NCBI GenBank assembly: GCA_014871385.1
Contig: CM026421.1
Location: 17,467,048-17,531,047, forward strand
DNA from: Ceratodon purpureus
Taxonomy: Eukaryota; Streptophyta; Bryopsida; Pseudoditrichales; Ditrichaceae
Direction: 5' to 3'
DNA: 64,000 nucleotides
This document shows, piece after piece, positions 13,846 to 62,835 of the stretch; within the stretch, counting starts at the first letter, position 1, and each line of letters begins with the position of its first letter. The translations under genes and the position numbers were made by a program. A model generated the notes under the pieces. It was not told where the DNA came from and did no database searches. It was given only the letters and a program-made list of their open reading frames with translations.

Positions 13846-14146
13846 CACTATAATAGTGGCAGAATGAATAGAAGGTGTGTGTAATGAAGGGGAGTTTCAA
13901 TATACTAGGGGCCAAGGGCCAAAGGCTAAAGGCTGTGTGATTCCAGCAATTTTATTGGGCTAGAGCTGAAAATTGGTCCGTGGGGTTTCACACTATGGTC
14001 CAAGGGCCGAAGATCTTGAAATTGCCCATGTGGTATCACTTTTTGAGAGTTTTGGCACCGAAAGTCCGGCCTCTTGAAGAGGGTTTGGGTTGAACAAGGA
14101 TAAACACCCAAACTCTTGCCGAGGGGCCGAACTCTTCTTCATTAAT

Positions 14147-15018
14147 CCCCTAAACGGTCATTCTCCTAGAATGGGCGTTTTTGGACTTTGGGCAGGTTCC
14201 TAAATTCAAATTTACTTGAAATTTTTTGAATTCTTTTGTGGAAAAAGGTTTTCTTAAGATGTTTATGGGGATTTTCTATTTTATTTTTTGGATGAAGTGA
14301 GGAAAAGTATGGAATTTTAAAGATTTCAGCCAATCTTTGGGCAGGCTCTGAGCCACTGTGAATGCCGCAATTTCTGCCCAAAACTACCCGAAACTGCCCA
14401 AAACTACCCGAAACTGCCCAAAACTACCCGAAACTGCCCAAATCTGCATAAAGGCAAAACTTTGAAATTCCACCAAAAATTGAGATTTTAGTGTTTTTCA
14501 AAGATAAAAATTCCTATGTATAGAAGAGGCACTAGAGCATGTTTCTACCGCTTGGGTTTTCAATTCAAGAATGTTTCATATGCTATTTTTATTGTAAAAA
14601 ACGGCCTTTGTATGTGAATTTTAGCATACCCTTTGTGGAAATTGATTATTTTCTCAAGGTTCCACACCTTGCATGGGCATGAGATTTTGTGGACATGTAC
14701 CTAACTTAGCAAGGAACAAGAATCTAAAGAGACTCATTCTAATTCTACTCAAAAAAATGGTTTTTTTGGACCTCAAAAGACTGTTGTCCCCTTTTTGCAG
14801 GGTAAAAAAACTTTTTCTTCAACTTTGTATGTTATGATCTCTCAAATGGTAAGGATTGAGAGTGTGAGATTTGGTAGGCATATAGACATAGAAGTTAGAT
14901 ACAAGATCCTATGGTTGGAAATACCAAAATTGGTTCCATTTTTGCACTATCGGGATTGCTTCCAAAAGGAACTATTTGGAGGGAGTTTTGAGCAAAAACA
15001 CCCTTGGACCTTTAGGGG
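14147..15018 (+). mobile_element. TTAA-flanked piggyBac-like non-autonomous element, copy A
   Basis: The left end is CCCCTAAACGG and the right end is the inverse TTTAGGGG. TTAA lies at 15019-15022 on the right. On the left, TTAA at 14142-14145 is separated from the C run by one extra T. Length about 872 bp, with no transposase frame. The internal motif ACAAGATCCTATGGTTG (14901-14917) and the block TTATGATCTCTCAAATGG (about 14832) are shared with the other copies. Closest to copy B: both have GAATGGGCGTTTTTG and a GGGCAGGTTCCTAAA string after the left end. Copy A has a short array of AACTGCCCAAAACTACCCG units at about 14380-14440. Confidence 0.7.
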
Positions 15019-15022
15019 TTAA

Positions 15023-15550
15023 ATATATTCAAAAAATCATCAATTCAATATTTTAATATTTTACGACAACTCTAGAACTTGGCCACTCTGCATTGTTTGG
15101 TCTTCAACAAAATTCTGCCCTTGGGCTGCGTAAAAGCCCCTAACTTATGCCTGCTGAACACTATGCCAGAAGTCTGGACAGTGGAATGGAGTCCCGGTGT
15201 CATTGGGCAAGCCTTGCAGCAACGCTGCATTGAGGCAGAAAATGAGGTGCAACACGAGAGTCCAAACACGAGGTGCCTGGCTGTGGCTCCACAACGTTGA
15301 AAGTTGAAACACACAACTCCAACTTGGGACTGTAACTTAGTAATTACTTGTGCTCTAAATTTTGGAACCATGATACATTGCCTATTCCGCTACAGTGCTG
15401 GCTGACAGAACCAGAGTGGTCAATGATTATTTGGAGACTGTGCATTCACTCTAGAGTAGGCTGCTGCTGGTTTCACACCAAGCGTAGTTCAGTCCTTCAG
15501 CCATCCATTCTGGCAGCAATGAGATGTGAGTTCCTGCTCTTCCAACATGG
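15023..15550. other. Spacer
   Basis: No recognisable gene. Open frames at 15072-15371 and 15348-15734 have no family resemblance and are taken as chance. Confidence 0.4.
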
Positions 15551-15553
15551 TAA

Positions 15554-16367
15554 GGGCCAATTTAGATATGGAGGCCCGGCCAATTCCGATTGCTTGAAAT
15601 TTCTGCCCATTTTTGGGTTGGAGTTGGCTTCAAGTCCCCATTATAATAAGATAATAACGGGGGCCAATGATCCCATATGTAATGGCCTTGGGGCCAAGAA
15701 GCTAGGCAAATCCAATAAATCTATAAAATTTTAGCCCCTTTTTCTCTCCTTTCATTGCCATTTGTATAAGATGAATGAACGAAGACAGAAGATTTTAATG
15801 GTTCTTGTGTTATTCATGGCCGTGCAACATATTATGGAAATAATGCAATATTGCAAGGTTTGATTAAAAGTCTAGGAATCACTACAATCAAAAAAGAATA
15901 TAGCCTCAACCATGTATCTACACTTGCAATCATTTGGCCTCCAAATGGTGCATAAATTGAATATTCAAGCAATGATTTGAGTACAAAAAAAATGAATTAT
16001 GTAGGGTTAATATGAAGGAAGAAGGAAGGAAAGGGTGGATGAGATCTATGCAGGCTTTTCCATGTAACTGTGAGGTGGAGGTCTCAATTCTCCGTGGTTT
16101 CGCAAATGGACTTGATTGGTTGACTGAGAAGTATTATTTTATTGTAAAAGGTTTTTTTGGTCGAATATGTCATTGGCCCTGGGGCCAAGAATTGGCTTTC
16201 CATTCTCGGTGCATCCAATTCACCGAGCTCGAGCCATGAGAGAACTTGCATTTTTTTATTATAATATTCATACCACCAAATTGGCCCAACATCTTAGCCA
16301 ATCACAAGGAAGGATTTCAGCCTTCAAACCGGCTAAATTGGTCCGGCCCTTTGATGTAAGTCGGCCC
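15554..16367. mobile_element. Candidate PIF/Harbinger-like element, about 814 bp
   Basis: The left end GGGCCAATTTAG (15554-15565) follows TAA at 15551-15553. The right end reads CTAAATTGGTCC at 16333-16344 and finishes in GGCCC, followed by TAA at 16368-16370. The 3-bp TAA duplication and GGGCC termini fit the Harbinger/Tourist group. The inside is full of GGCC motifs and has no transposase frame. The right inverted repeat is offset from the end by about 23 bp, so the exact boundary is uncertain. Confidence 0.4.
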
Positions 16368-16370
16368 TAA

Positions 16371-17229
16371 TTTCTTAAAGATTCCAGTCTGGAATTGGAT
16401 AGCCAATTATTTCATGTTGGTGGAATTTATTTATTTATCATTCGATTCAGTAGCTTTTCTTACATATCTGTGGCTAGAAATCATAATTTGGCCCTTAAGG
16501 GATTGAGACAGTTTTCCCGTCAAAATCGTCATTTAATACCTCTTGGTAAAGAAAGCTAATTCATTTGACATTGTAACATCTTTTTTATGAATTCAACTAG
16601 AGGATCTAATAATTAATATTGTAAAAGTATTTCTCTCCAAAATTTAAAATTATAATTAATGTAAAGTACGAGATCTTAGTTCCAAAACTTCTAGGAATAA
16701 CTTATTTTTTATTTTTTCTAAACCTTTGATTTTTTACCTCCAAAATCCACTTGCTTCTTCATGTGCTTGTTTCTTAATTGTGATTGATCATGCATCCCTA
16801 CCCAACCTAAATACGTACAGTAAACCATATTCTTGCTAAGGTGCTTTAACATGCCCACTGAGGACCCAAAATGTAATTTGAATGCCAATGACATTTGACT
16901 TGGATATTTTTGCAATGAGGATGGCAAGAAGCACTATAGTGGCCACAATGATCAAAGAGATCCACTAATTAGTTGTAAGTCACCCGAATGAAAATGTCAA
17001 ATTATTGACTTGATTTTGGAGGTTTGGGATTTTTTCCGGTTCAAAACCTAAATCTTACCTCAATATCACATCAGTATTACCCAGGTTTCACATAAGTAAG
17101 ATACACAAATCATCGAATAATCTTAGTAAGAAGAGGATAATAGCTAGATGACCTCTGGAACTTCCCAAAATTTGGTCCAGAATGTAGGGCGATGAGCACA
17201 ATTCTGGGATATCATTATCATGGTGCCTG
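16371..17229. other. AT-rich spacer
   Basis: No gene, RNA or clear repeat was recognised. Confidence 0.4.
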
Positions 17230-17232
17230 TAA

Positions 17233-17541
17233 GGTAAAACCACCTATTTTCGTGCATTTAAGGATTATGTAAGGAATCTATATTCTTGGGTGATGAAATG
17301 AGTGGGTTACTATTTTTCAGGGATAAGGAATAGGAAAAGACAAGTTTTCCCTATTTTTTTGATATTTTAAAGCACACACATAATTAAGTACAAATTTTCA
17401 AAGCCTTGAGAAGTGGAAACCTATAAGCGGGCACCCTATTTATGTACGCATGAGGCACATGCAAGGAAGGTCATATCTTTATAAAGGCAAGAATCTTAGG
17501 GCACGCCCATGGGGTGGTGCCCGCTTATAGGTGGTTTTACC
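17233..17541. mobile_element. Small Tourist/Harbinger-like MITE with an inner hairpin
   Basis: The termini are a perfect 17-bp inverted repeat: AAGGTAAAACCACCTAT at 17231-17247 and its inverse at 17527-17543. TAA at 17230-17232 and about 17543-17545 may be the target duplication, although the right boundary is off by one base. A second inverted pair lies inside: ACCTATAAGCGGGCACC at 17419-17435 and its inverse at 17516-17532. The right part can therefore fold as a separate hairpin. Non-autonomous. Confidence 0.55.
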
Positions 17542-17545
17542 TTAA

Positions 17546-19791
17546 GCCCAAACTCCTACTTGTATGCAAATGCAATTGAACTAACTTATCTGAAAGGACT
17601 CTGGGGGACAGATCATAGATATAATTGTGCTGGAGACTGAAACACAGTGGCGTCCAGCTCACTTCCCGTGAAGCTAACTTGTAAGTTAGTCTTGGATTGG
17701 AGTGAAGAGTGGACTCAGTGAAAATGCAAAATGTGCTGAAGCCCAGTTTCTGGCAAATGCACAAACAGCAAGCCTGGTGAGTGTTAATGAGGTAAAAGAC
17801 TGTACCCGTACAAAAGAAATCATGTAATCATAGTCTAGCTGGGAATTCTAATTGCAAGCCCAAGTGGAAGCCACATTGTAGGAACAAAGCAGCAAGGCCA
17901 GCAATAATCAAGACCTACCAAGAAAAACTTGTTTTGAAAATTGGCTTGAAGCCAGAATAATGACATTTTTTTTTTTTCATTTTTTTTTTTTGGGACACAA
18001 ATTGGACAAAAATAAATTTCGTCCAAGTATCATATGTGATTCAATATTCATTTTCCAGATATTTGGTTCACTTCATGAATGAAGAATTAGTAACAAAAAT
18101 ATGATTTTGGGGTGAGATAGAAATGGTATTTTAAACTTATTTTTTCCATCTGAATTCACTTTTCTATGTTAATGTGGAATCCTCTTATGGTATTTTCTCT
18201 AAAAATATCTTTGAATGTCCTTCAAATAATACATGTCAAAAATACTATTAGAGCATAAAAATCAAATTCAATTGAAGATGAAGCCTATGAACTTCACATA
18301 CAAATGTAGTCAAAAACTTTGTCCCAAGTCTTCTTCAATCTACTACCAAGATGCAAAGAAAATGTTTCTCCCCTTTTTTTGTTATTTGATTTAGAAATGA
18401 TAATTTTGAAGTGTTTTTGGTGAAAATTGTCAAGCGAATCTTGGTTACAATCTTTTTATTATCCCCTACTCCTTTAAAAAACATAGAAGTTGCCTCTCCT
18501 CTATTTGTATTGGCAAATGGAGTTTAATTTATAAATGGAAGAAGTTGGTTGTTTCCAAACTCAAGTCAAACTACTAACAACCGCCAATAAAAACGAAGGA
18601 CTTTTAATGAAATACCATAAATCTTATACTTGCATTTGATTGAAAGGTGGCTTCTATCCAATTAATTTGTTTCTTTTTTGTTGCCTTCATAATTTTATAA
18701 ATTTTCTGTTTTATATTTTTAGAAATATTTTTGGGCGAACCTACTTGTTACTACGGTACTGAAACTGCAAGCTCCTGTTAAATAATCAGATTCAGCTCAT
18801 TCCTCAGTCCTCATTTCTCATTCCGCAGCCGCACTCTTGACAGTATTGATTAAGTTAGAGTGTTCTCACAGTAACAGTCAAGCATAATTCGCCCTCATGA
18901 CAGAACAGAACAGTATGAGAGTCGTGATCTTCCGGTATCAGGAAGAGCGAGCAAGTTGGAGTGGTCATGTTCATGTCCCCACAGGGATCTGCTAGATCCA
19001 AGGTGATGAAGCCCTGTGTGCACTGTAGAAATATCAGGTAACTTAAATGCCGGTAAACTGCAGTGTTGCCAGACCGTTGAACGCCACGCTCCGGTATCGG
19101 TGATTCGGCGACCATGCTCTCATGGTTACTCGCCTAGCGTTGCACTCTGAGTTGTTTGTCCAGCTCTTCTGACACCCTCCGCACACGGTGCTAGCTTATA
19201 ATGAGGAGCCTCTTCTCTAGCTCAGGCTGCGGGGTCGTAGATTCATAAAATATACATACTTATATGATCGATCACCTGCCTTCGTGGTTTCAATCATGTA
19301 AGTTAGCTCGAGAATTAGATTCATCAAATCTTCGGTACTAGAGGTTGCGGACGTCTTCGAGTGAGTAATATCTAGCTAGCTAGCAAGCAGAGGGCATTTG
19401 CTTCGTTCAGGTGAATCTGTTAATAGTTTCGCTTCACTGTTTAGCTCTCGATCTGGCGGGAGAGATTCAGGTGTTGCAGGAACTGCAGAGGTTTAGCTAG
19501 GCGGCCCGATGAGTTGACGAGGGAGGAAGGAGGTCAGTTGTTGTGGAAGAGAGGTGAGCAGTACTAGCTAGTGAGGATCGATGTGATCGCATGAATGGTG
19601 GATCGAGTGGGAGCGAAGTTGGTTGGTTTCGGCGAACAAACTTGGTGATTTTGTTGTGAAGGTTTGAGGATTTTCCATATGAGAACGCTCGCGAGCAGAG
19701 ACTCTCACGGAGTGGGAGTGGCGGTGAGAGTGGCGTTGCAGCCATCGAAAGGGAGCACTAGGTGCGCCGGCCTTGAGGCCTGGTGATTGTA
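17546..19791. other. Spacer and 5' flank of the EDR2-like gene
   Basis: AT-rich to about 18700, with a T-rich tract at about 17969-17990. GC content then rises, and 18750-19791 probably holds the promoter and 5' UTR of the EDR2-like gene. Open minus-strand frames at 18855-19115 and 19497-19965 have no family resemblance. No promoter elements can be named with confidence. Confidence 0.45.
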
Positions 19792-26545: not shown

Positions 26546-26945
26546 CCGACCATCAAACCCAAATTTTTCAACAGTAGGAAAATAAAGGTAGAAGAAACTC
26601 GTCTTTAAGACACTGTAGTCATCTGTACAATAGTCGATATTCTTGACATTCAACCATTTTGAACAGCTCTTTTTTTGTAGCATTCTTCGATTCAGGATAC
26701 CGTACTTTAGCGAGAGACTCCTGATCTTCGTCACAAGGCTTCTCTATAGATGTATCTGATTTGGAAACCTTCGCCTGATATCCACAAGCCACAATTTGGC
26801 ATGGTATCAGCTCCTCTACAGAAGTGAAATAAACCATATTCCTCATTTCAATTTTGATGTGCACTTTTGCACGGCCTCGAAGTACAATAGAGTCGTCTGT
26901 ATTTTCATCACAAGGATAGCCACCGGTCAAAGTGTAGGCAATGCA
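26546..26945. other. EDR2-like 3' flank with an unassigned minus-strand frame
   Basis: The EDR2-like 3' UTR should lie here. On the minus strand 26619-26930 encodes an open frame of about 103 residues (landmarks VEELIPCQIVACGYQAKV and ATKKELFKMVECQEYRLLY) that continues in a second frame below it. Composition looks protein-like, but no family is recognised. It may be a fragment of a retroposed or transposon gene; no call is made. Confidence 0.3.
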
Positions 26946-31638: not shown

Positions 31639-32567
31639 CCCCTAACTATCCTTAAAACCCAAAATGGGTTTTTGCGAATTCGGGCAGCCTAGCTGGGGAG
31701 GTTAAAAGTAATATTTTTTTTCAAGATTTTTACTGGATGCTCCCTTTATGGTAAGGTCTATGTAGTAAAAACTTTGAAGCCAAATTCCAATTTTAGAACC
31801 TTCATCTAGAAATTTTAGGTTTCAAGTCGAAAACGGGCAGTCTAAAATTAGGTCTTTTTAAAAAAACAAAAATTGAAATATTTTCATAACCAAATCAATA
31901 ATCAAGTTCCATAGTGACCCAAGTCAAAAAGTTTACCAATTTTACAAGGGCAGCCTCCAAAACTTACAAAGACAAGCTTCACGGTTTTTAGTAATTTTCG
32001 AATTTTTCCTTAAAAAATTTGTCAAAATTCGAGATTTTTGAATTTTTTAAAAATTATTTTTCCTATAAATCAAAAATTTATAAAGGTACCTACTCACCGT
32101 TCACTTTTTCTTAAGCTCACAAATTGTTTTTGTAATGCATGTTTTACTATTTTGTCAATTTTATACCTTCTTATGGAAAATAATTTTTATGAAGGTCTAA
32201 AAAGTGTTTTTTTGGCCTAAAATTTTGCATGTGCATACCTAACCTAGTTAGCTACATGGAAAAAAATATGACCAAAATTTTTGAAATGATAATCATTAAG
32301 TCTCCCTTTTGCCCATTTGCACCATGCCTCTCGGCCAAGGCCCAAAAAAATATCTGCTGAAACTTTGAACACTACGATCTCACTAATGAAAAACATCCAA
32401 CGGTTGAAATTTGGATCAGTTCTTCCAAGCAAGGTTAGGTACAAGATCTTACGGTTGAAATTCCAAAAAAAGTTTAAAAATTTGTTTCATATCCTCGGGA
32501 GGGCATAGTGGTAAAAAATCGCAGTTTTGAGGATTCAAGCTTTCAAAAACACAAGGAAATTTAGGGG
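31639..32567 (+). mobile_element. TTAA-flanked piggyBac-like non-autonomous element, copy C
   Basis: TTAA at 31635-31638 precedes CCCCTAACTATCCTT. At the right end TTTAGGGG is followed by TTAA at 32568-32571. Length 929 bp. The internal motif ACAAGATCTTACGGTTG lies at 32441-32457. Copy C is highly similar to copy D (50104-51027), which lies in the opposite orientation; both contain the same small frame (32317-32508 here). No transposase is present. Confidence 0.8.
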
Positions 32568-33563: not shown

Positions 33564-36500
33564 CTATGATCGCACTGCACTCCCATTGCTTGCTTCAGGT
33601 AGGATTGTAAGTCGTCTGACTGCTGTGACAAAGCTCCTGCCAATTTCAACATAAGCACTAGTTACTATGATGCACAGCTGGTAGAGCCTCTATGGACAAG
33701 GAAAAACACGGAAGAGTTGCAGACTATATTAGGACGCACCTAAATAGGTGAAATACATCACCCACCTGAAATGAATACAACTCAACACATTGTCTCTCAG
33801 GAACCTCTACCTTCCACCCAATTCATATTGACTATGCTTGTCCTGAACAATGGTACACCTGTTACTGATGTACAGAAGGAATAGAGTTATCTTTTAAATG
33901 TACCTGTAAGGTTCAGCACCAACGTGCTTCGTAGAGCCCTCAGCATTCTGATATACCAGCCGGTTCTTGAAATCGGGAATAGGAACACTAAACATAGCTG
34001 CCAGACGGTCATAAATTTCATCGTAAGAGTTGAAGTTGGAAAGGTCCAGGGTTCTTCCTACTTCATCACCCTCTTTGAACACTTTGCAATGATGAAGTGG
34101 TTCATTCAAACCTTTCTCCCTGTCAGTACCTTGGTCTTTGAACCACTTCAAACTGCCGACCTCGCTCCCAATCGAAAGGTCAGACCAATGTCCACTGTCA
34201 TTCTGTCGGTACCGTGACATAGCTCCATCCCCCGTCACTCCAGATGCACCATTGTGGCCTGACTGAAACCTTCTCATCCTGTCCTTGTTCTCTAATGTGT
34301 TGTCTGAGGATGAGTTACTAGTGGTCGAAACCCGCAGGCCATCGTGAAGAAGGGGTCCATCTGATGAGCTGTTTCCAGATGTAACACACTGCTGCTGCGG
34401 TTTAGAGTTGCTGGTGGGATCAATGGACTGGCCGAATAGAAAAAACGAAGTAGAGGTGGTCTTGGTAGCAGTGTTCTCTCCCTGGGAATTGCCAGCCGGC
34501 ATGAAACCCAATGTGTGACTGCTGACAGAGTGCTGTGAGCGGTGCTGTCCATTAGTCAGAAGAGAGAAGTGGTGGTTGTTACCAGAAGGTGTGTCGCTCA
34601 AGAGGTTCCGAGCAGGAGGAACCTGCTCGTTGTAGTAGTTATCGCTAGGATACTCTCGAGGATGTTTGTAATTACTGTTCCGGAAATCCATGGTTAGAAG
34701 CCCGTTAAAGCGATCATGCCTGGCTCCCTGCATGCCTGCAGAGACGTCGTCTAAGAGTGCAGGGCCCCCCCATGGGGCGGGCAACTGTCCCGTAAAGGTG
34801 CTGGAGCCTGCCAAAGGCAGGCCAAGCAACCCAGGTGGCTGCAGCTGCAGTTCCTGAGGCTGCACAGCACGCAGTTTCTTTTTGGGTAAAGAGAAGGGGG
34901 GCAACTGCATAGGCAGGGTGGCAACGAGCTCCACCTGCCAGGGACTCACACGACTCACACCCTGCAGTAGGTCTGGCTCGTCCCATGTAACCTGCAATTA
35001 CAACCATTAGGTTAGTACTCGGGTTCAAAGATGCAAGGAAGCATGTATGATGCAACAGTAGCCCAAGGCTGTTGATATCCAAACTTCCAGTTGAGCTCAG
35101 AAGGTGGTAACGTGATAAGCATACCTGTAAAACGCGCCATGGAGAATTTGGCCAAAGGAGGGGATCAGCTGGCTGAACTGCTGCAATTGTTCCCATAAAC
35201 CAACTGATCCTGGAAGAGTCCTCTGTCTCAAACGCCATCTTGAAACGCATACCTGCGTACCATGTGTGATCTAGGGCTTGCTTCACCAAAGCAGCTTTCA
35301 CACAGAACTCTGCTGTGCTAGCACGTGGGTAATACACAACCTCAAACGGCTTCCCAGCCACAGCAAGCGAAGCAGCCTCTAGAACAGATTTCGCAGTGAC
35401 GCGGGCACGATTACGTGCAAAGCTACTCGTTGTTGATGGACCCTGACTGCCAGATCGAATCCCATTATTTAACCCACCATGGCCATTGTCGCCAACTCCA
35501 CCAAAAAAATCTGAAAAACTCTCCGTACCCTTGACCTCCCAACGTGAGGCCCGCATAGCTGAAGTTGCACTTGCTGACGAGTGCCAGGTGGAGGTATCCC
35601 CACCGCTGGTACCCCGCATTGAACGTCGTACACCAACACAGAGCTCCCCCGAAGCACTGCGCAGGAACACAATTGCATCTCCAGCCACTAGCTTCTTCTG
35701 ATTGACAAAAGTGCTCCATCCGGTAGTCAAGAGATGTCGCCTTGGGGTCCCCCTGTGCACGCAACCAGATGTAAGCACCTTCGTCATTGTTAACGAAGTA
35801 AAGAGTTAGAAGACAAAGCATGTAGGCACAGCATGGAGATGACAAACTTCATGCATAGAAGTTTAAGTCATACCTGTAGATGTGCCGAAACTTCCAGACA
35901 TCTCCGTGAACATCCTTCGCCAAAACAGTTTGAACAGGAGGATCCGTGGAGTAATCGAGTGGGGGAAAGATGGTTTCAGCACAGTAACGGGGAACAGAAA
36001 ACCCACCCCCATTGTTTGCATCACTCTGCGTGAGCGTCTTGGCGAAGGAGGCTGGTTTTTCTGGCGGGGGCGAAGGGGGAGAATCGTCCAAGAGATCATT
36101 AGAGAAAGGAAGACCCTCCGGCTGCAGGCGCATTCGTGCAAACACCTCATCGGTTTCCGTATCAGCTAGAAAATTGACTGAAACGACCCGACACGGTATT
36201 GTTCCCAATGGACCCAATGTTCCTGGAAAATCAGGAGTAGTAGCAGCTTGTTCTGCATGTCCTTGAGGAAAGTATATAACCTTGGCTCCCACCGGCGGGA
36301 GTTGGACCATACCACCCGCACAGGCATGCCAGAGCTGTGCATCAAGACGTCCCATACTCTCTCCCCCTCCGATGCCTCTATCCCGACCTCCAGTATCATC
36401 GTGCTTTTCCATTTTGACACTCATCGATAACCGAGGGCCTGGCCCGGGCATTCCAAACCAGGACACGGGAAATTGTGGAGGCGCAATCGCGACTGATTTT

Positions 36501-36586
36501 AAGTTTAGTCGAAAATGTTGCAGCGCGTCTTTATGATCTGTGACGGACTCTGCAACAGTCACAGCTGCCGCAGCACTAGAAAGCAT
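33564..36586 (-). CDS. Class-C auxin response factor (ARF10/16/17 type), miR160-targeted
   Basis: Nuclear transcription factor binding auxin-response elements; class-C ARFs act mainly as repressors. Exons in transcript order: 36586-35874, 35752-35125, 34991-33904, 33636-33564. Together 2502 nt, giving 833 residues, with all introns GT-AG. An in-frame stop shortly upstream supports the ATG at 36586, although MSVKMEK (residue 55) is an alternative start. The dimerisation core lies around residues 77-170 (LDAQLWHACAGGMVQLPPVG). B3 DNA-binding domain at about 181-285, with FAKTLTQSDANNGGGFSVPR and RGTPRRHLLTTGWSTFVNQK. ARF ancillary domain at about 355-465. The middle region has FFLFGQSI, typical of class C. 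The PB1 domain at about 735-825 opens with CKVFKEGDEVGRTLDLS. The short last exon encodes the end of PB1 (SFVTAVRRLTILPEAS). Reading through the last intron would stop two codons later and truncate PB1. The acidic face of PB1 is eroded. Confidence 0.94.
34717..34737 (-). promoter_or_regulatory. miR160 target site in the ARF transcript
   Basis: On the plus strand these 21 bases match miR160 (UGCCUGGCUCCCUGUAUGCC...) except for one T/C difference, which becomes a G:U wobble in the target, and the last base. The mRNA site lies in exon 3 and encodes the conserved peptide AGMQGARHD near residues 532-539, its usual location in ARF10/16/17-type genes. Slicing here is expected between bases pairing miRNA positions 10 and 11. 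Confidence 0.95.
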
Positions 36587-46221: not shown

Positions 46222-46225
46222 TTTG

Positions 46226-47405
46226 ATTCTAAAGGTTCTTGTTGTTTTTAAAGCTAAAACTGCAAAAAATAGACTTTTGCTAATAAGAACCTATTTATTT
46301 CTAAAATTAGACATTAAATTGAATATATAACCGTAGGATCTTGTACCTACATTGTCTAAAAAAATGTATACCAAAGTAGAGCTCATTCTACTATACAATT
46401 TGCAAAGTTTTAAGGTTTAAAGTCATTGTGAAAGTTTTTTTAACATTGCCCTAGCATGATACTTCACCTCTGATGCCCAAAAAGTATACATTACAAACAC
46501 ATTTGATCCATAGAGAGTCATCAATTGCTCTAGGTGTGGAAGTTAAGTATACGCTCACAAAACATGAGCCTCATTCGGGCTTGGAAAGGGGAAAAATGTT
46601 TGATTTTGTAAAAGTGGATGTGCTAAAAATACCTTATATTCTCCAAATTAAAAATATCAAAAGGGTAATCTAATTTTTTTTTAATTAAAACAAACGGTAG
46701 ATGTGTTTATGGCAATGAGGGAAACAACTACATAAAATTTGAATGCAATAGAGTAAAACTCAATTTTTTAGAATTATTTGAAATGTAAATGGTATTTTTC
46801 CCTTCCATTTTGAGGGACAGTATTGGTAATAGGGGGCCATGTGGATGGGCCCCTACCACGCCATAAATATTGAATGAGATGTGTTAAGTCTGAATGAAAA
46901 ATCAAGATTGGATTAATTTTTTTATGTGAATAGATAAGTATTTTAAATGTAAATTGAGTTATAGATGATATAGTATCATTTGGATAAAAATAATACAAGA
47001 ATGAAGGCAACGCATATAGTTGGAAACGGTTGATTAGATACTATATGTCTATCGGATGAAAAATGTCATCAATGTATATGGATGAAAAAATATTGGACCC
47101 ATTATTTTGCAAGTGCCCACCCTTTGAAATTTAGTCTTATCATCATATGCTCCTTTAAATGACAAGCATCTTGGGTAAAATTTGGGAGATTGTGATTGAT
47201 TATTGGTTGTCCAAATTTAAAGCAGATTATTTTAAAATTTATAACTTTTGCATCGTAGGTCCAAATGCTTTGAAATTTGTATAGAAAACTGTCGTTGAAA
47301 GCTATATGTATTATAAATTTTAGGAGATAATCAAATTATGGAACCTTAGAGTAGCCTTGTGCAGAAGTGCTACGTTCACAATGTGCTCTCAAAGACATTT
47401 AGATG
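46226..47405 (-). mobile_element. TTAA-type element, decayed copy G
   Basis: Internal sequence aligns with copy F over about 1.1 kb. Shared strings include TTGTGAAAGTTTTTTTAACATTGCCC against TGTAAAAGTTTTTTTGACATTGCCC, and GAGCCTCAT(T/A)CG(G/A)GCTTGGAAAGG. The ends are eroded: TTTGATTCTAAAGG on the left where F has TTAACCTCTAAAGG, and CATTTAGATGTTAA on the right where F has CTTTAGGGGTTAA. The internal motif in inverse form lies at 46329-46346. This is the oldest-looking member of the family here. Confidence 0.65.
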
Positions 47406-47409
47406 TTAA

Positions 47410-49905: not shown

Positions 49906-49912
<7 letters not shown>

Positions 49913-50010: not shown

Positions 50011-50103
50011 GACTTTGGTCTTTTAGTCAAAGTGGAATAAGTTTGTATGTGACTATAACAATAAAATAAGTATATGAATGTCAACAATGGGGTACCGAGT
50101 TAA

Positions 50104-51027
50104 CCCCTAAATTTCCTTGTGTTTTTGAGAGCTTGAATCCTCAAAACTGCGATTTTTTACCACTATGCCCTCCCGAGAATATGAAACAAACTTTTTAACC
50201 TTTTTTGGAAATTCAACCGTAAGATCTTGTACCTAACCCTACTTGGAAGAATTGATCCAAATTCCAACCGTTGGATGTTTTTCATTAGTGAGATCGTAGT
50301 GTTCAAAGTTTCAGCAGATGATTTTTTGGGCCTTGGCCGAGAGGCATGGTGCAAATGGGCCTAAGGGAGACTTGATGATTATTACTTCAAACATTTTGGT
50401 CACATTTTTTTCCATGTAGCTAACTAAGTTAGGTATGCTCATGCAAAATTTTAGGCCAAAAAAACGCTTTTTAGACCTTCATAAAAATTATTTTCTATAA
50501 GAAGGTATAAAATTGACAAAATAGTAAAACATGCATTTCAAAAATAATTTGTAAGCTAAATAAAAAGTGAACAGTGAGTAGGTACCTTTATAAATTTTTG
50601 ATTTTCAGAAAAAATAATTTTTAAAAAATTCAAAAATCTCGAATTTTGACAAATTTTTTTAAAAAAAATTTAAAAATTACTAAAAACTTTGAAGCTTGTC
50701 TTTGTAAGTTTTGGAGGCTGCCCTTGTAAAATTGGTAAACTTTTTGACTTGGGTCACTATGGAATTTGAGTAGTGATTTGGTTATGAACATATTTCAAAT
50801 TTTTTTTAAAAGACCTAATTTTAGACTGCCCGTTTTGGACTTGAAACCTAAAATTTCTAGATGAAGGTTCTAAAATTGGAATTTGGCTTCAAATTTTTTA
50901 CTACATAGACTTTTCTGTAAAGGGAGTTTCCAGTAAAAATCTTGAAAAAAAATAATACTTTTAACCTCCCCATCTAGGCTGCCCGAAATAGCCAAAACCC
51001 ATTTTGGGTTTTAAGGATAGTTAGGGG
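50104..51027 (-). mobile_element. TTAA-flanked piggyBac-like non-autonomous element, copy D
   Basis: TTAA at 50100-50103 and 51028-51031 flanks CCCCTAAATTTCCTTG and the inverse-type end GGATAGTTAGGGG. It is an inverted close relative of copy C, about 18 kb away, of almost equal length (924 versus 929 bp). The internal motif in inverse form lies at 50214-50230. The shared small frame is at 50163-50354 (-). Confidence 0.8.
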
Positions 51028-51031
51028 TTAA

Positions 51032-51729
51032 AAACCTCTCAATTTATTTCAAATTAAGCTTGAATGTAATATTTTTTATAATATTTATTAGAGTTTTTTG
51101 AAAAGTCTCTATGTGTTTTAGAATGTTTGTGTACTTAGCTTCATTTTGCTTCACCGAACAATTTCTTCTACAACTAATTAGTATAACAATCTTAGAAAAT
51201 TTGATATTTTTTTCCTCTCTAATGTGCCATTTTTTTTTTGGTGGAAAGTGGTGATCGTTCATTAGTACAAAAAACCACTTGTACTCAGTAATAAACCGGG
51301 GAAGAAAAAGAAAAATACATCAATCTAGGTTCCAAATGAGGGGCCTCTGTTCATAGCAAGGGCCGGGTAAACTGCCATTGTGGAGAATGGAGGCTGCCTA
51401 TGCATAAAACCTCCTTACTACATCAAGCTGAAACAATATCTTATTCAAAATTTGGACTTTCGCCTATGGCCATAGTTTTTCTAGTTGTTAAGAATAAGCG
51501 ATCTATAGGCCATGCTAGCACATCAACTAATTTTTACATGAAAAGGAAAAAAGAAAGTTCACACGCTTTCAAAATCACAATAAATCAACCTCTACAAGTC
51601 TTATTAAATAAACTACTTTAGATCAATTATGATTTTTCTATGATATGTTGTGTAAAGTAACAACGATATTTGTGCCCAACAATACATGCTACAGTAGTTT
51701 GTATTAGGAAGAAGGCAATAGAAATATCC
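51032..51729. other. AT-rich spacer
   Basis: Contains a T tract followed by GGTGGAAAGTGGTGATCGTTC (about 51230-51260), which may be another inverted retroposon tail. No gene recognised. Confidence 0.35.
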
Positions 51730-51733
51730 TTAA

Positions 51734-52584
51734 CCCCTAAACGGCCATTGTCCTAGAATGGGCGTTTTTGAAATTTGGGCAGGTTCCTAAAAATTCAAAT
51801 TTACTTGAAATTTTTTGAAATTTTTTGTGGAAAAAGGTTTTTCCAAGAGGTTTATATAGATATTTTTTTTTTTTTTTTTTTGGATGAAGTGAGAAAAAGT
51901 TATGCTCCTCTGAGCATAAAACGCCCTTCCACGGGCAGGCTCTCAGCCACTGTGAATGCAGCAATTTCTGCCCGAAACTGCCCGAAACTGCCCAAAACTG
52001 CCCAAATCTGCCTAAAGATGAAACTTTGAAATTCCTCCAAAAATTGAGATTTAGATATTTTTCAAAAATAAAAATTTTTATGTATAGAGAAAGTAGTAGA
52101 GCATGTTCCCACTGTTCGGATTTTTAATCCAAATTTTTTTCATATGCTATTTTTATTGTCAAAAAACGGCCTTTGTTTGTGAATTTCAGTATACCCCCTA
52201 GCGGAAAATGATTTATTTGGCAATCTTCCCCACCTTTTCAATACAAATTTTTTAGCACAATTAGTTAACTCAGTCTTCTTTGACGTGCATCAAAACCCCC
52301 AAATTCTATAATGCAAAAAAATGGTTTTTTGGGCCTTCAAAACTCTGCTGATCCCTTTTTGCGCAGGGAAAAAAAACTTGTTTTTCAACTTTGAACGTTA
52401 TGATCTTGCAATTGGTAAGGAATCAGTGTGTAAGATTTCGTGCACATGTAGACATAGAAGTTAGCTACAAGATCTTACAGTTAGATGTACTAATTAAGAC
52501 CCCAAGTTTGCAAAATCCACCTTGCTTTGAAGAGGGGCTGTTTTCAGGCAGTTTTGATGAAAAACACTCTTGGCCGTTTAGGGG
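51734..52584 (+). mobile_element. TTAA-flanked piggyBac-like non-autonomous element, copy B
   Basis: TTAA at 51730-51733 precedes CCCCTAAACGGCC. The right end is its exact inverse, GGCCGTTTAGGGG, followed by TTAA at 52585-52588. Length 851 bp, with 13-bp perfect terminal repeats, the cleanest of the family. The internal motif (ACAAGATCTTACAGTTAG) lies at 52467-52484. Same subfamily as copy A: both carry the GGGCGTTTTTG and AACTGCCC repeat strings. Confidence 0.85.
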
Positions 52585-52588
52585 TTAA

Positions 52589-54287: not shown

Positions 54288-54454
54288 TTTTTTATTTTTT
54301 AAATTTATTTTTTGACACATGGTGAAAATTCCATTGCAAAAGAAGCAAAATACAACACCGCTGCCAAACGAAGCAAGGACAACCCATTGGCAACTGCACT
54401 TTTTGATTTTTTAAATACATGATAATATCAACATCCAAAAATCGGCGTGCTTAA

Positions 54455-55577
54455 CCTCTAAAGGCCCTTGGTGTTTTTGGAGCCAAACTACCAAAACATA
54501 TCATTATTGATAGAAACCTAATTTCCAAATTTAGTATTAAATTTGAATATGTAATTGTAGGATCTTATACATACTAATTTTGAAGACAATCCGCCATACA
54601 GATTGCGAGATTATAACGTTTGAAGTAAATGTAAAAGTTTTTTTGACATTGCCCCTAGAATATACCAAAGTTTTGATGCCCAAAAACTATATTTTGCAAA
54701 GAAATTTTATCCATAGAGGATCATGAACTCCTTTAGGTATGGAAATTAGGTATAAGCTGATAAATTTTGAGCCTCATACGAGCTTGGAAAGGAGAAAAAA
54801 ATCCCTGATTTTGTTAAAAGGGATGCGTTGAAATTCCCTTACATTCTTCAAAATCAAAACTACTTAAAAGGTAGTCTAAAAATGTCCTATTGGAAATCTT
54901 AACAATAGACATGTTGAAGTCAATAAAGAAAATAACTACAAAAAATTCAATGCAATTGGAGTAGATCTTAAATTTATAGAATTTTTAAAAGTGTAAATAG
55001 TATGTTTCTCTTTTATTTCAAAGGGCATTTTTGGTAAAAGTGTGTCTTGTGAATGGACCGTCAAAGATACAAGGTGAAATTTATTAAGTTTGGATGACAA
55101 ATGAAGATTGAATGAAATAATTTATATAGATGAAAAATAGATTTTGGGTGATAGTTGTCATTTGGATGAAAAAATCAGCAACTTCTTTAGATAGAAATGG
55201 TTAGTTAGATGAAATTTTTATATGGGATGAAAACCGTCAGAAATGTGTATGGGTGAAAAAATATTGAGCCCATCATTTTGCAAGTGGCCACCCTTCAAAA
55301 TTTTGAATTGTGACTTTTTGCCCTTGTGAATGACGGGCAACTTAGGCAAAAAATGGGAGCTTTTGATTGGTTATTGGCTGCTGAGATTTTGAGCAGATTC
55401 TTCCAAAATTCATAACTTTTGCATCGTAACTCCAACTGCTTTGAAATTTGCGCCATTGGAAAGCTACCGTTGAAAGCTACATAGTCTAAAAATTCAAAAA
55501 AATAATAAAACTCTAAAACCTTAGAATAGCCTACTGGGAAGTGTTGCTACTCAATTCGAGTTAAGGGCCTTTAGGGG
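54455..55577 (-). mobile_element. TTAA-flanked piggyBac-like non-autonomous element, copy F, inserted in a LINE
   Basis: TTAA at 54451-54454 precedes CCTCTAAAGGCCC. The right end GGGCCTTTAGGGG is followed by TTAA at 55578-55581. Length 1123 bp. The internal motif in inverse form lies at 54553-54570. It separates the LINE tail (54288-54450) from the LINE body (from about 55590), so it is the younger insertion. Related to copy G. Confidence 0.8.
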
Positions 55578-57528
55578 TTAACAATCTAATTACCAAAAGA
55601 TGCCCCGACATGAGCAAAGGTGATTCCATTGAATTTGACCCCTCTGGATTGTATAGGAGTGACACTGTTGGCCCATTGGGTCTCAAAGTCCAAACAAATG
55701 CAGAGCTTAGCTGAAGCACATGAACTCAAGAACATATGAGTGCGATGCCACGTCATCCGTGCCATATCTACATCTACGTCCGATATAAGCCGTTCTAATA
55801 GCTCTATAAGCTAGTAAACATTGGTGAAGACCCGGGCGTTTTGGTAAAGCCACATGACCCGGAGCACACTTTCGCTAATAAAGGACCAAGTTGGCTAGGA
55901 GGCTCGCAACTCGTCTAGGAGAGCAGTCCCGATAAAACCCTATTTTCAGAAAAGGGATTATTGGGGAGATGTGGAGAGATAGATACTCGAGATATGGTAA
56001 AGGATGGTGGTGGCGAAGGTCCATGCTTGGCTGGCCGCATCGCATTCGAAGAATGCATGGACTAAGGATTTTGAGACCACCATGTTGCAATAGGTACAAA
56101 GATGAGACGTGTGAGTGAAGCCCATGTGCCTACATTGATTGACGTCCAGTGCCCAATGATATAAGCTCCAAAAAAAAAGGCGGCCTCCTTGCGTGGTAGA
56201 GCGGGTCCCATACCTTGGACGAGTTTGGACTGAATGTTGCAGATACTAAACTGATCCACTTGGTACTCATCGGTAACATCATGGAGGTCCAAAGCCTCTT
56301 CTAGCGGCGGCCATGTTTGCTTGTATACTCAAATAACTGAGGCCAAAATTAGCAGCCAAGATCAAAAGTTAAACGGTAAACGTCAAGTAGGTATTTGAGG
56401 AGCTCTGGGTTCCTCGAGGCAATCTCTGAGTGAAGTGCGATAATATAGATGCCCATGATAGGGCTAGTTGTCGGTGGTTGAGGCGGGAAGAGGAAGCATA
56501 GTTTGGGACTAGGAGCCGACCATGAATACAACTTGGTTGGCGGGGATGAGGAGATCCTCAATAGGCCTTGCAAGCTAGGGCTGGAACGCTAGAGTAGTCT
56601 GGAACACTATTGTGGGTCAGCCAAGGCATCTCCGATAAACAATACCACCTATTTGCCACTGGTAGATTGGAGGTCGGTGGCATGGCCTAGAGCCACCCTA
56701 TCTGCCAAGGTCTAGACTTGGAACAACTCAGTTTGACGACGCTCCTTGTCGTAGAGGCCATAGCGGCATTATAATTTTGACTTTGACTTAAGCCAAATTA
56801 CTACTGAAGAAATGTGTGGTCCACTAGAGGTGGGTGTTTTAAATTTCCTCAAATGTCATAGGAGGAGTTGCATCAATGAAGAGGCTGAGTACTTGCCACG
56901 CTTGGAGTAAGCGGTTTTAGAGGTTTGAGCTATGGGACCAATGAACCGGGCAAGTTAGGCCCATAGCAAACTATGGGTCCATGACTCAGATCCTCGGGGG
57001 CAAATACTAGCGGACCGGCTACACAACAAGAGATGAAGTAGAGATGTGTCTGACACCAGCGCCTTAATATTCGATTTATCTATAAGAGCCGTTATAGCTT
57101 TAGTCGGGTCTACAATGCCGAGAGCCTCTATGACTTTATCTGTATAGCAATCATTCTATCTAACGCTGGCTTTAACATTCTCTTTAGTCCCGGCCAGCGG
57201 GTATTTCCAAATGGATGGCCAAATAGATTTCAAAACTTGAATAGAGCCCTCCTGAATACTGAGGAAGTACTAGAGTATGGAGAGGAGTATTGAATTAATA
57301 ACCACCGCTCATACTACAATAGACATGTGAAGGGTCGTCTAGTATTTGAGCTTTGCCTTGATCTTGGCCGCTAAGAATGAATCAACATGAGTGGTTGTAG
57401 GGGAGACCTTCAAGGAGGTCTGATGCAGCTTCGACAAGGCTTGAGGAGAGGCAACTGTGCACCCAAAAAGGCCCAACCAATGGGGATGGAGCCCTACCAA
57501 ACTAGTAAATCCCGCACTTGCTATAATT

Positions 57529-59429
57529 CACTATAAGAATCCCGCGTTTTAGGTGACATCCCGAATCATGTCTAAAAAAATAAGTGGACGTTGTAAAGGA
57601 TGTTGTGCAGACATGAGAACATCTAAGACGCAGCAAAAACAAATGCAAACATCCGAAAAAACATGCAGACATCTCCGTAGCACGCGCATCTCCGGGTGAT
57701 TTTGAGGGGCAGTGAAGTATGCAACGTGGACGCCACGTCGACGACACATCAGCAAAGTTTTTTCCGGGCAGTGCCACATGGGAGGAGGATGTCATCTCTG
57801 CCATGGTGACGTAGCGGACCACGTGGACCCGCCATTTTCTGACGTGGCGGCGCAAAATTCTGACGTGTCAGCCGCGAAGAAGTGACGTGGTTTGCCACGT
57901 AAGCATAGTTTCGGGTGATTTTTGAGTTAGAACTGCGTTACTGTAGACGTCATTGAGGACATCACCGTGGTTTTTGAGACGTCTTTGTGGTGACAACGTG
58001 ATGTCCACGTCGATGTCTGTGCGGACGTAAACTGTGTCCGACATTTGTTATAGTGGACATCCCCATGCTGTAGAATTTGCTATGCTTGACATGGCCATGT
58101 CAATGTGTACGTGATGTGTGGAAGGGTATTTTTGCAAAGATGAATGTGTTTTGGTAGACATGAAGGTGTTTTGTAGACATGAGGGTGTTCTTTGTAGACA
58201 TGCGAGTGTTTTTGCAGACATGAAGGTGTCTTTGTATCCACAAAGGTGTTTCGATAGCCGTGATGGTGGCATTTGATCACAAGAAAACTAAGGAAAGAAG
58301 ATCACATGAAGAAAGGAACAAGGGAGGAAAGGAGACAAGAAGAAGATGGAGAACAAGAATGAAGTTAAGAGAACCCCCCAGATTTTTTTGAAGTACCTTT
58401 CAATTTTTAGGTTGCCATCTCTCCATTCTAGCTTGGATTGAGGCGTGCCTTAGCTTTTTGGAAAGCTAAGTTGATTGTGCATCTACCCTCAAAATCTCAA
58501 AAGCATAGGATCAAAATCCTCGGACTGATTGCTAAAAATCCGAGACCCTTCCTCCAGCTGCACTCCTTTGACAACCCCAACTTTGGGAGGCAATATCTCA
58601 CTACCTATAAATCGGAATTGGACGTGCTAACTACCATTGGAAACCCCTACAAGAGATCTACAACTATGATGAATCTCACTCTACTTGGAGAAGAAACAAG
58701 GGACGGATAGGGAAAACAATGGGAGACAGTCCATGGAGGAGGAAGAAAACACCAAAAGCTTGAAAACAAGCTCTCAAATACAAGGTGAGAAGCCGCCGAA
58801 GTGGCGGCTCACCCTAACCCTACCAAGGCTGAAAACCCTAACCTAAAGCCTTGATGGATGAATGTTGCCACCAATGAATGAAAAATGGATTATTGAACAT
58901 CACCATGTCTCGACAGATGTCTGTGTCGACATCTTTCGAGACATGCGGACATCTCCAAAAAAGAAAGAGAGAAGAACTTTGATATTGTAAATTTCATTTA
59001 TGAAGAAAAAATAAAAAAAGATTCTTCAATCCTTCTCGGCCTTTTTTTGCTCCCTTTGCTGACCCTGCCCTTTTGTGGTTTTTTTCACTGTGGGCAGAAA
59101 GTTACCTTGCAGCCCCGTAACTTCGCGCCCATTTTACCGTCCGTCAAAACGAGGTCGTTGTTGACGTGGCAATTACGTGTCTACAAGGATGTCCTCTGCC
59201 ACGTCCCCATAGACGCGGACGTTTTTCCAAACGTCTTTGTGTTTTTAGGATAGCGCGCTCGTGTCTGGTGACGATAAGCCCAGTTTATCTCAAAAAACAA
59301 GTTAACGTCTTCACGTTCCTCAAGACATGAATGACTAACACAGAGACATGAATGACTAACACAGAGACATGAAAAAAACACGACCATGTTTTTGGAGAAC
59401 GTCACCTAAAACGCGGGATTCTTATAGTG
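57529..59429. mobile_element. Non-autonomous CACTA transposon, 1.9 kb, inserted in the LINE
   Basis: Starts CACTATAAGAATCCCGCG and continues TTTTAGGTGAC. It ends in the exact inverse, GTCACCTAAAACGCGGGATT then CTTATAGTG. ATT flanks it on both sides (57526-57528 and 59430-59432), the expected 3-bp duplication. The ends are rich in ACGT/GTGGC motifs, fitting the subterminal repeats of this superfamily. No transposase frame is present. The middle (about 58430-58720) holds a 90-codon plus-strand frame (FWKAKLIVHLPSKSQK) of unknown origin. Arms carry inverted copies of GACGTGGCA-like strings. Confidence 0.9.
58125..58262. repeat. Short tandem array of GTAGACATGAAGGTGTTTT units inside the CACTA element
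   Basis: About five imperfect units of roughly 21-26 bp, each with (A/T)GACATG(A/C)(A/G)(G/A)GTGTTTTTG-like sequence, at about 58135, 58157, 58180, 58205 and 58229. Low-frequency substitutions between units. Confidence 0.75.
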
Positions 59430-59740
59430 ATTGATGGACAATACCGTCGCCATCACAAATATTGTTAGCAAAGCGGAGGCCTTGTCAAGTACCCGAGCTA
59501 TTCCAAAGAGAGAGAAGGTAGTGTTGTCTACAAACTGTGTCAATACCTTCTAGGAAACGCCATCCGGGAGGCAGATGGCACAATGTGAGGCTATAAAGGT
59601 GGCGTATTGGGCAACAATAGCTAGTGCTTCAGTGACCAAAATGTACGGGGCTAAAAAAGAGCCATGTTGCACTCAACAACGGATAGAAAATTCATCCGTA
59701 TATGCCCCATTTAACGAAACTCCATGTTTACTCTCAATAA

Positions 59741-61900
59741 TTCCATGAACTTATTACATAAAATAAGAATAATTGATAAAATAACTCCTATCCCCTTTAA
59801 ATGAGAAATATATTTCTCTAGATACAAACATTGACATCAAGGAAGTTATTGAAATATGGGTCGCTCAAGAATGTAACTACGTCAATCCAAGTTATGTCCA
59901 ATATCATTTTCAAAACAAAAATTATTAAAATCCCTGTGTTTTTTTTGTATTGTTTTGTAGAATTAAAATCAAAACCAATAACATATTTCAATGATCAGCA
60001 TGAGAACAATCATGAATCAAGCCCAGGATTGAGATTCACAAACCTCGAGGTAAGTAGCAAGTTCATGTATCAAATAGGACAATTATCCATGGATCCTATT
60101 ATTAAAAAGCCAAGAGTTAATCGTGGGTAGAAGTGGAAATGGGATTAAGTTTTGAAACCTAACAAAGTTTCATTTTATAATGGGTGCCATACCTTAAGTT
60201 AGTGTGATGAGGCAGAAATCAAGGGGCAATGATGGGTCCTTGGATCAAAAAGGACTAGGAAATTAAATTTAAAATGTTTTTATTTGCAGTCCTTGGATCA
60301 GAAGGGGCTGGAAAATGAGTGCTAAAATTGAATTTCCAGACAGACTCTTTCCTGAGGATCTGGTGGATGTCCTGGCCCTGCCTTTTCAAAGGGCGGATGT
60401 TCTGGATTTGCCTTGTGAATGGGCGGATGTTCTGGATTTTTATTTATTTGGTTATTTTTAAATTTTTTTGAAGCAAATGGTGTATTTATTCCGGATGTTC
60501 TGGATTTGCCTTGTGAAAGGGCGTGCATGCCCAACTTAGTATTCCAAATGTTGGCCTAAGGTACTTATTGTTACTTACCCAAGTTTTTTTAAAGTTTTGT
60601 ACGTTTTAACAGAAATAAATTCGTTGTCCAAATGAATATATAAAATTATTGTAGATGGATGAGCATTTTTGTAGAGCACTGAGGTATCACATGTTTAAAA
60701 TTTTAACCTCTGATGGTGCTTGCTTAGGGATGAAAGTCGTCCTCACGCTTCGTATTATGTTGTTGGTTGGTGTGTTGTTGTGATGATTTGAGAGATTATT
60801 GTGAACTATGGGGCTGCAGAGGTGTTTCCAAAGGAAAATAAGAGACTTTTAAATCTTAGTTTTTATATGAAAATTATAAAGTTCTACTAATGAAGTTATA
60901 CATTTGCAAATATGGAAGTTTTGGATTAAATTCTTCGTGTACTATGGGATGCAATATTTTGGACATTTTTTGAATATTGTGACTAAAAAGTCTCGAGGGA
61001 AAAATGAAATTTTAGTCAAGTTCTAAACACTTGTAAACATAAAATATTTGTAAACTGAAGAAAAAATATAAAGAGAGTGAAAGGAAAAAAACATGTATAA
61101 CCAAAATAAATCTTCATCCTAATTTTTGTTACAAGAAATATAGATGTCAAAGTCAAACCATTCAAGCTATGAAGACAATCATAATACTTTTCAATCTACT
61201 TATTCCTTCACTTGCAATATATGGTATTTTTGGTGTGGTATTCACATTCTGATACAATGTCATCATGACAATTTGTACATGGTTTATAGTTTGTATAATG
61301 ACCTTCAAAAGAACATTCTACTATAAATTAGACAACCCTTCGATCACCATATGACTTTCGGCTAAGCACTACCTACTATAACTATTTGAGCAAGGTTTGT
61401 CATTTTAATTTAAGGTAAATATTTAGACCAAAACTAAAAACATTTATACCATTTAAGTTAAAAACCACTATAGTGACATAAAAAATAAAAGCATGTATAT
61501 TGCGTAAAAAATATAGCAATATTAATTACTAAAGTTTATTAAACACATATTACAAAAAACACTTAAATTTTTAACATTTATGGCACATAGAATCAAAATA
61601 AATTCTAAAATAAAAACTCAATTGTGAAGGGAAGCGGAAGTCTTTTCTGAAGTCTTTGGTGAGAATCTAATCTTGGTGATCAAGGGGGGTCTTCATTGAG
61701 GCTTTCCATCCAATTGCGGGAGGTAGGGCGGGGCGAGCACTAGCAGCTTTCTTTCGATTTGCTTCCTCTATGTTTTATGCCCCATTCCCATAGATATTCT
61801 AAAGTTTCAAATTGTAATGAACTTCTAGGTACTCATGGTATGAAGTTCTGTAGGCCAAGATTTATAACCTAACTATCTGAAAATACATAGAAATTGCACC
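59741..61900. other. AT-rich spacer
   Basis: Apart from the 60.39-60.54 kb repeat with its insertion, only short frames. No gene or RNA recognised. Confidence 0.4.
60390..60539. repeat. GGGCGGATGTTCTGGATTTGCC tandem repeat interrupted by a retroposon tail
   Basis: About 33-bp units at 60392 and 60421. The second unit is split by a 52-bp T-rich insertion (60440-60491) carrying the retroposon ending AAGCAAATGGTGTATTTATT. The 16-bp string CGGATGTTCTGGATTT stands on both sides of the insertion (60424-60439 and 60492-60507). Confidence 0.75.
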
Positions 61901-61904
61901 TTAA

Positions 61905-62831
61905 CCCCTAAACGACCAAGTTGTTTTCTAACCTCCAAAACCAAAAACTGCGATTTTCTACCACCTTGTTGAAATTGAGATACAAGTAAAGTTTCTACTA
62001 TTTTTTTGTACTTCCAGCCGTAGGATCTTAGACTTATTTTCTATCAAAAATACTATGTAAAATTTCAGCTGTTGGATCTTAACCATTTGTGAGATCATAA
62101 CATTCAAAGTTGATGCAAGTTTTTTTTGGGCAGACATAGTCTACTTTGTGCAAAGGGGGACTTGATGATTGTTACCCCAAAAGTTTGGCTCATATTTTTT
62201 TCCATGTAGATAACAAAGTTGAGAACACCCGTGAAAAAATTTAGATACTCATTTGGCTCTTTGAACCTTCATGCAATTTATTTTCCAAAAATAAGTATGA
62301 AAACAATGATTCAAAAGAACCCAGATTTTGTCAATTTTATTTGGTTTTTGGAAAAAACAAACAGTGAGAAGGTACCTTTACAAGTTTTTGAATTACTGGA
62401 AAAAACAAAATTGAAAAATTCATAAATCTCAAATTTGGCAAAATTTGAAAGAAAATAATGGAAAATTACAGAAATCTATGAAGCTTAGCCTTGTAATTTT
62501 TGGAGGCTGCCCTTGAGAAATTGGGAAATGTTTTTACTTGGGTCACTTGGGAATTCTAATATGAATTTGGTTATGGAGTAGCTTTCGAAAAAAAAATTCA
62601 AAAAAAATTCAAAAATAAAAAGTTTCTTTCTACCCGCTCGAATGCTGAAAACTAAAATTTGCATTTAAAACTTCGAAATTTGGAATTTGACTTTGCAATT
62701 TTTCCCACATACACCTTGTAGTATAGGGAACATCCTGTAAAAATCTTAAGTAAAAATATCAAGTTTTACCCCTTTATCTAAGCTGCCCAAAATAGCAAAA
62801 AGCCATTTTGGTGGCCGTGGTCGTTTAGGTG
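61905..62831 (-). mobile_element. TTAA-flanked piggyBac-like non-autonomous element, copy E
   Basis: TTAA at 61901-61904 precedes CCCCTAAACGACC. The right end GGTCGTTTAGGTG is followed by TTAA at 62832-62835; one base in the terminal CCCC has changed. Length 927 bp. The internal motif in inverse form lies at 62015-62030, and the second block (CCATTTGTGAGATCATAAC) at about 62083. Same subfamily as C and D, but more diverged. Confidence 0.8.
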
Positions 62832-62835
62832 TTAA

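Follow-up and report, generated by a model that had tools for sequence, protein, structure and literature searches.

Seven elements, most of them flanked by TTAA and ending in C-rich inverted repeats, lie within 64,000 nucleotides of the genome of the moss Ceratodon purpureus (positions 17467048-17531047 of contig C1 in an assembly of 362.5 Mb and 151 contigs; this whole stretch is referred to here as the window), and they raise the question of which transposase moves them. An initial annotation of the window assigned the elements to the piggyBac superfamily. The assignment is supported by transposase genes found in two complete elements of the same genome (L062 and L063), by the ends that these share with the window elements and by 4-bp target-site duplications. 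We conclude that the seven are, with near certainty, non-autonomous piggyBac transposons that were moved in trans by full-length elements of one clade residing in the same nuclear genome.

The seven elements of the window

All seven elements were found at the coordinates claimed by the initial annotation, and together they occupy 6806 bp, or about 10.6% of the window, in line with the earlier estimate of about 6.8 kb and near a tenth. BLAST comparisons place them in subgroups. Elements A (14147-15018, + strand, 872 bp) and B (51734-52584, +, 851 bp) are 75% identical. Element C (31639-32567, +, 929 bp) is 93% identical to element D (50104-51027, -, 924 bp), which is reversed relative to C, and element E (61905-62831, -, 927 bp) joins this pair at 68%. 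Elements F (54455-55577, -, 1123 bp) and G (46226-47405, -, 1180 bp) are 70% identical across 1142 aligned bp. Between A/B and C/D/E, BLAST returned short matches only, and between F/G and the rest it returned none. The seven align once D, E, F and G are reversed relative to the other three. A search for long inverted arms within the elements found none.

Exact TTAA is present on both sides of five of the seven elements (B, C, D, E and F). Element A, as previously described, has TTAA on its right and TTAAT in front of CCCC on its left, with one extra T. Element G had been misdescribed: its left end, at 46226, reads tttg followed by ATTCTAAAG, which departs from CCCCTAAA in three positions and lacks TTAA; at the right end of G, TTAA is retained and two positions are mismatched to CCCCTAAA. 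The initial statement on the seven ends was thus too generous, given the missing TTAA and the three mismatches at the left end of G. An exact CCCCTAAA occurs on at least one end in six of the seven, G being decayed at both. G is still a member of the family, given its identity to F and the internal motif that it carries (see below). Pairs of left and right ends at element spacing occur five times in the window, compared with zero times in each of 60 random sequences in which the window's base-to-base transitions were kept, and a chance origin of the end pairs is excluded. The seven elements form one family, with F and G as looser members.

Transposase-bearing partners in the same genome

A tblastn search of the 64-kb window with eight transposase frames found no transposase, and the longest stop-free stretch within any window element is 128 codons. 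Across the genome, the profile PF13843 (DDE_Tnp_1_7, piggyBac) gave 116 scored matches from 998 candidates, all of them above the cut-off, whereas none of 14 control genomes gave a match. One of the 116 is located 40 kb left of the window, and a hand count indicates that about half of the 116 have an open frame of at least 900 codons and are stop-free in the match. The initial annotation had called for an autonomous partner, present or past, and had proposed a search for a piggyBac transposase between the same ends; L062 and L063 answer this description. L062, a complete and TTAA-flanked element, spans 5863 bp and contains 1050 codons in one stop-free frame. One end reads TTAA followed by CCCCTAAACGGCCATT and the other nearly its inverse; the left end of L062 is 82% identical to the left 189 bp of B and 78% identical to the left 165 bp of A. 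L063, also complete and TTAA-flanked, measures 5570 bp, contains a stop-free frame of 1071 codons and has a left end with 72-73% identity to A and B.

The L062 protein matches PF13843 at 1.4e-80. Among solved structures it matches Trichoplusia ni piggyBac (6x67, 7e-28) and piggyBat (9c0f, 2.7e-27), and at E 0.01 the matches of the transposase in the PDB are piggyBac and piggyBat only. The aspartates of L062, which we take to be the catalytic ones, align with those of 6x67 and are conserved in all eight aligned transposase frames. The frames are under purifying selection: the ratio of nonsynonymous to synonymous substitution rates (dN/dS) is 0.07-0.11 in three pairs with unsaturated dS (0.6-0.8). 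Other L062-type pairs give lower ratios, but these are saturated or not computable, and the pair L060/L061 gives 0.45 at a dS of 0.09.

In the transposases of L062, L063, L051, L054 and L057, a conserved start, ESxLEAPRRS, is followed by a region of variable length, glycine-rich in several copies, and then by the catalytic domain. A Cys/His-rich tail is conserved in L062-type frames, and zf-Tnp_2 lies below the cut-off in the three proteins that show it. The long frame is bordered by splice-like letters in five of five L062-type frames (TGTAG or TGCAG before GA on one side and an AT/GTAAGT-like sequence on the other), and the L062-type gene is therefore probably spliced.

Among the first 12 transposase loci returned, a group of seven, in which the domain match stops at profile position 347, has 78-96% mutual identity and 37-50% identity to the other five, which comprise at least three lineages. 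L060 (contig C53) and L061 (C6) represent a second piggyBac lineage of 4.63 kb, with CCCCCTAAC ends, 95% mutual identity and no AAGATC motif.

Downstream stretches of 2 kb were fetched for 20 of the 116 transposase matches, and they connect the C/D/E subgroup to particular copies. Right-end sequence of C, D and E recurs in two of these stretches, the tails of L074 and L080, where the similarity spans about 370-410 bp and continues up to the terminal base (66-71% identity, 1e-43 to 1e-57); the matching region comprises the right 411 bp of C and, at 70-71%, the right 371 bp of E up to its terminus.

A subterminal motif common to passengers and one transposase clade

When the elements are placed in a common orientation, the motif AAGATCYTA recurs in each of the seven, 112-125 bp before the right end. 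With coordinates derived from these distances, the motif lies 116 bp from the end in A (14903-14911, +) and B (52469-52477, +), 125 bp in C (32443-32451, +), D (50220-50228, -) and E (62021-62029, -), 117 bp in G (46334-46342, -) and 112 bp in F (54558-54566, -). L074 and L080 also have it 125 bp from the end, as do C, D and E, and 19 of 20 fetched copies of C retain the exact motif at this distance. In elements A to F a second block, resembling ACTTTGAACGTTATGATCTC at 17-19 of 20 bases, precedes the right end by 172-206 bp.

Nine of the 20 fetched transposase tails contain the motif 114-125 bp from the end, as do L062 and L063, and three further tails (L068, L071 and L082) have the GATCYTA core only, at the matching place. 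Within one transposase clade, marked by a domain match ending at profile position 347, all 14 elements examined thus have motif or core, versus 0 of 10 others, in which the match ends at 349. The latter are eight tails, L060 and L061; in one of these tails, L076, no element end was found. A Fisher test of the motif against the 347/349 label gives 5e-7, a value that overstates the significance because related elements were counted as independent. The label was noticed only after the motif had been counted, and the clade is borne out by the transposase identities. The AAGATCYTA block is the best candidate for a one-sided subterminal binding site of the transposase. Alternatively, it could be an RNA-processing signal inherited from the transposase gene, where it would have stood at the 3' end.

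Target site and length of the duplication

Copies of B and C elsewhere in the genome allow the target to be separated from the element ends. TTAA is present on both sides in 35 of 39 further B copies and in all 20 C copies fetched from the 39 other C places. The remaining B copies have CTAG on both sides (L013), TTAG on both sides (L018) or one mutated flank (L017 and L046), and beyond the four flanking bases the B copies show no strong base preference. The duplication is 4 bp long, and TTAA is the target rather than the end of the repeat; the matching CTAG/CTAG and TTAG/TTAG pairs establish that all four bases derive from the target. The initial annotation correctly took TTAA as the target. 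Its argument from the invariant outer T and A is not decisive, and the off-target copies were needed to settle the point. It had further held that a different duplication would make TTAA part of the terminal repeat, and this reasoning is inverted, as the CTAG and TTAG duplications demonstrate target origin.

The initial annotation also proposed to look for empty sites carrying a single TTAA. By reasoning, the arrangement TTAA-CCCC...GGGG-TTAA and its single-TTAA empty site look alike under duplication of TTAA, TTA, TAA or TA, and since these four models predict an identical sequence, such an empty site cannot fix the length of the duplication. For 39 B copies and six window elements (45 sites in all), we joined the two flanks and compared them with the collected sequence. 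Two related unoccupied sites were found, each with a single 4-bp tract and each diverged from TTAA: TTTA is one base off and TTTG two bases off. Both are paralogous locations rather than alleles and lend weak support.

Copies in the genome

The copy searches scored the best candidates only, and the counts are thus lower bounds. The proposed genome search with B was productive: the best 40 of 3280 candidates yielded 40 places that are full-length or almost so, with 92-100% identity and B included, together with one partial place. For C, the best 40 of 2356 candidates likewise yielded 40 such places, at 94-100% and with C included. For F, the best 40 of 1065 candidates were F itself and 39 places with 76-82% identity in the main match, some of them not full-length. 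The 40 B copies diverge by 1-5% from their own majority sequence. Judging from these identities and from the divergence of B, the B and C elements look recently amplified and F looks older; the non-autonomous B and C copies are probably young.

Six relatives of F, each 1179 bp long and of equal score, lie on C2, C8, C39, C51, C54 and C88, four of them on high-numbered contigs, and they represent either the product of a recent burst or duplicates of a single segment. At L037, a copy of B is accompanied by C-like sequence on its left and, at a distance of about 170 bp, by part of another B in inverse orientation, an arrangement of nested or clustered insertions. The largest chromosome, C6 (110.5 Mb, 30.5% of the assembly), is probably a sex chromosome and appears poor in these elements. 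It holds 2 of the 40 best places for B, 3 of 40 for C and 1 of 40 for F, and, by hand count, 19 of the 116 transposase matches; the numbers expected from its length are 12, 12, 12 and 35, respectively, with best candidates alone having been scored.

Mechanism and alternative explanations

In the mechanism that we propose, full-length piggyBac copies of one clade would supply the transposase in trans. The enzyme would bind the short CCCCTAAA inverted repeats together with a one-sided subterminal site, for which the AAGATCYTA block is the candidate, would cut the element out at TTAA and would paste it into a new TTAA. Binding, excision and integration in these steps follow the known piggyBac mechanism, from which we infer both the chemistry and what the motif does; the anatomy of the passengers was observed directly.

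Elements of the Tc1/mariner (Stowaway-like) or PIF/Harbinger (Tourist-like) type, both common in plants, could in principle account for the flanks through TA or TTA/TAA duplications in TTAA-preferring targets, as the sequences of TTAA sites and of empty sites are, by reasoning, identical under these models. In 2 copies of 39, however, CTAG or TTAG was duplicated in full, rather than by 2 or 3 bp, and the partner elements encode piggyBac transposases, so that the probability of such an origin is negligible. Other superfamilies that make a 4-bp duplication are Kolobok, whose transposase differs from that of piggyBac, and Sola, whose target duplication has this length. Kolobok duplicates TTAA as well, according to an excerpt of PMC9587614, and Sola copies outnumber those of PiggyBac in a fern genome table excerpted from PMC6890710. 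The excerpt on Kolobok gives its ends as 5'-RR...YY-3', whereas those of the window elements are 5'-CC...GG-3', and the excerpts available on Sola state no TTAA rule for its target sites. The transposase between the ends studied here matches PF13843 and, among structures, piggyBac and piggyBat alone, and we consider either superfamily an exceedingly improbable source.

The seven could also be unrelated repeats, drawn from several piggyBac lineages or arisen by chance, that have converged on TTAA and C-rich ends. The scarcity of BLAST matches between subgroups would fit this explanation, as would the identity of just 36-50% between transposase lineages of the genome and the weakness of the second block in G. 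Yet the motif stands at 112-125 bp in all seven and, among transposase-bearing elements, occurs in one clade only, which makes convergence very unlikely. Telomere-like CCCTAAA ends as an explanation were set aside without a test after the partners had been found.

Several observations weigh against the interpretation of the seven elements as passengers of one piggyBac clade. Mobility is read from sequence anatomy. L074 and L080 are known from their tails. No transposase-bearing element with F- or G-like ends was present among those fetched, and F/G are tied to transposase copies by ends, motif and short blocks only (the block shared by F and L063 is 79 bp long, with 67% identity and 8e-7); this link is weaker than those of A/B and C/D/E. 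The interior of B is unlike L062 outside the ends and blocks, and B is therefore not a simple deletion derivative of L062. The second block scores poorly in G (13/20, at 198 bp) and in L062 and L063 (13 and 14, both at 196 bp), compared with a background score of 12/20 in the unrelated L060 and L061. The main frame of the transposase has no early start codon and appears to be spliced. A structure model of the catalytic core reached a mean predicted local distance difference test (pLDDT) score of 36 and was not used, and a third unoccupied site, from the comparison of L041 with the window, is so degenerate that its tract is unreadable.

A broader proposition is that piggyBac constitutes a major, diversified and perhaps active DNA transposon of this moss, with at least four transposase lineages, many intact spliced genes of about 1000 codons and several passenger subfamilies cross-mobilised by one motif-tied clade, and hence a native working plant system. 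We regard the chances of this as evenly balanced. Such a system, with its stop-free transposases and young passengers, would allow direct tests of the spread of piggyBac in plants and would also permit the role of the one-sided subterminal motif to be tested. Insect piggyBac has been used to excise markers from rice without a scar, and it has been proposed as an option for moss (excerpt of PMC5505980); endogenous transposases could cross-react in such a host.

Other genes in the window

The genes of the window are those of a plant. An auxin response factor gene lies in pieces at 33894-36586 (-), where B3 and ARF_AD match above the cut-off and the remainder of ARF_AD and AUX_IAA below it. At 10394-11191 (+) lies an exon encoding part of a tethering protein for vesicles that is Uso1/p115-like.

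Comparison with known systems

The piggyBac superfamily has been described mainly from animals and is best known from insects, and the moss elements represent a known superfamily in an unusual host. Carey et al. 2021 reportedly discuss unusual cut-and-paste transposons in Ceratodon purpureus, and for this reason elements of this type may have been described in part already. In the literature searched, mostly at listing level, we found no account of moss piggyBac elements. Plants are named among piggyBac hosts in the abstract of PMC10813416, and in the excerpt of a moss genome paper, PMC10619864, the word appears as 'piggybacking'.

The moss elements agree with Trichoplusia ni piggyBac and Myotis piggyBat in the TTAA target, the 4-bp duplication and the short inverted repeats starting with CC, as well as in the DDE_Tnp_1_7 transposase, its aligned aspartates and, tentatively, its Cys/His-rich C-terminal region. 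Occasional duplications other than TTAA, e.g., TTAG and CTAA, are also on record for piggyBac (excerpt of PMC10813416). Unlike those two systems, the full-length moss elements reside in a land plant, are 5.6-5.9 kb long, contain an apparently spliced gene and carry a one-sided motif at a fixed distance from the end. The moss transposase frame, at about 1000 codons, has a long N-terminal extension, compared with 594 residues for the chain in 6x67.

Animal piggyBac-derived miniature inverted-repeat transposable elements are non-coding, have ends in common with autonomous relatives and occur in many copies. The window elements share these traits but are longer (0.85-1.2 kb) and have no long inverted arms. 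A counterpart by host is the fern Ceratopteris, also a seedless land plant, for which an excerpted repeat table lists 1230 PiggyBac-labelled copies (PMC6890710). That record is a class label in a table only, whereas the moss provides complete elements with their frames, ends and target-site duplications.

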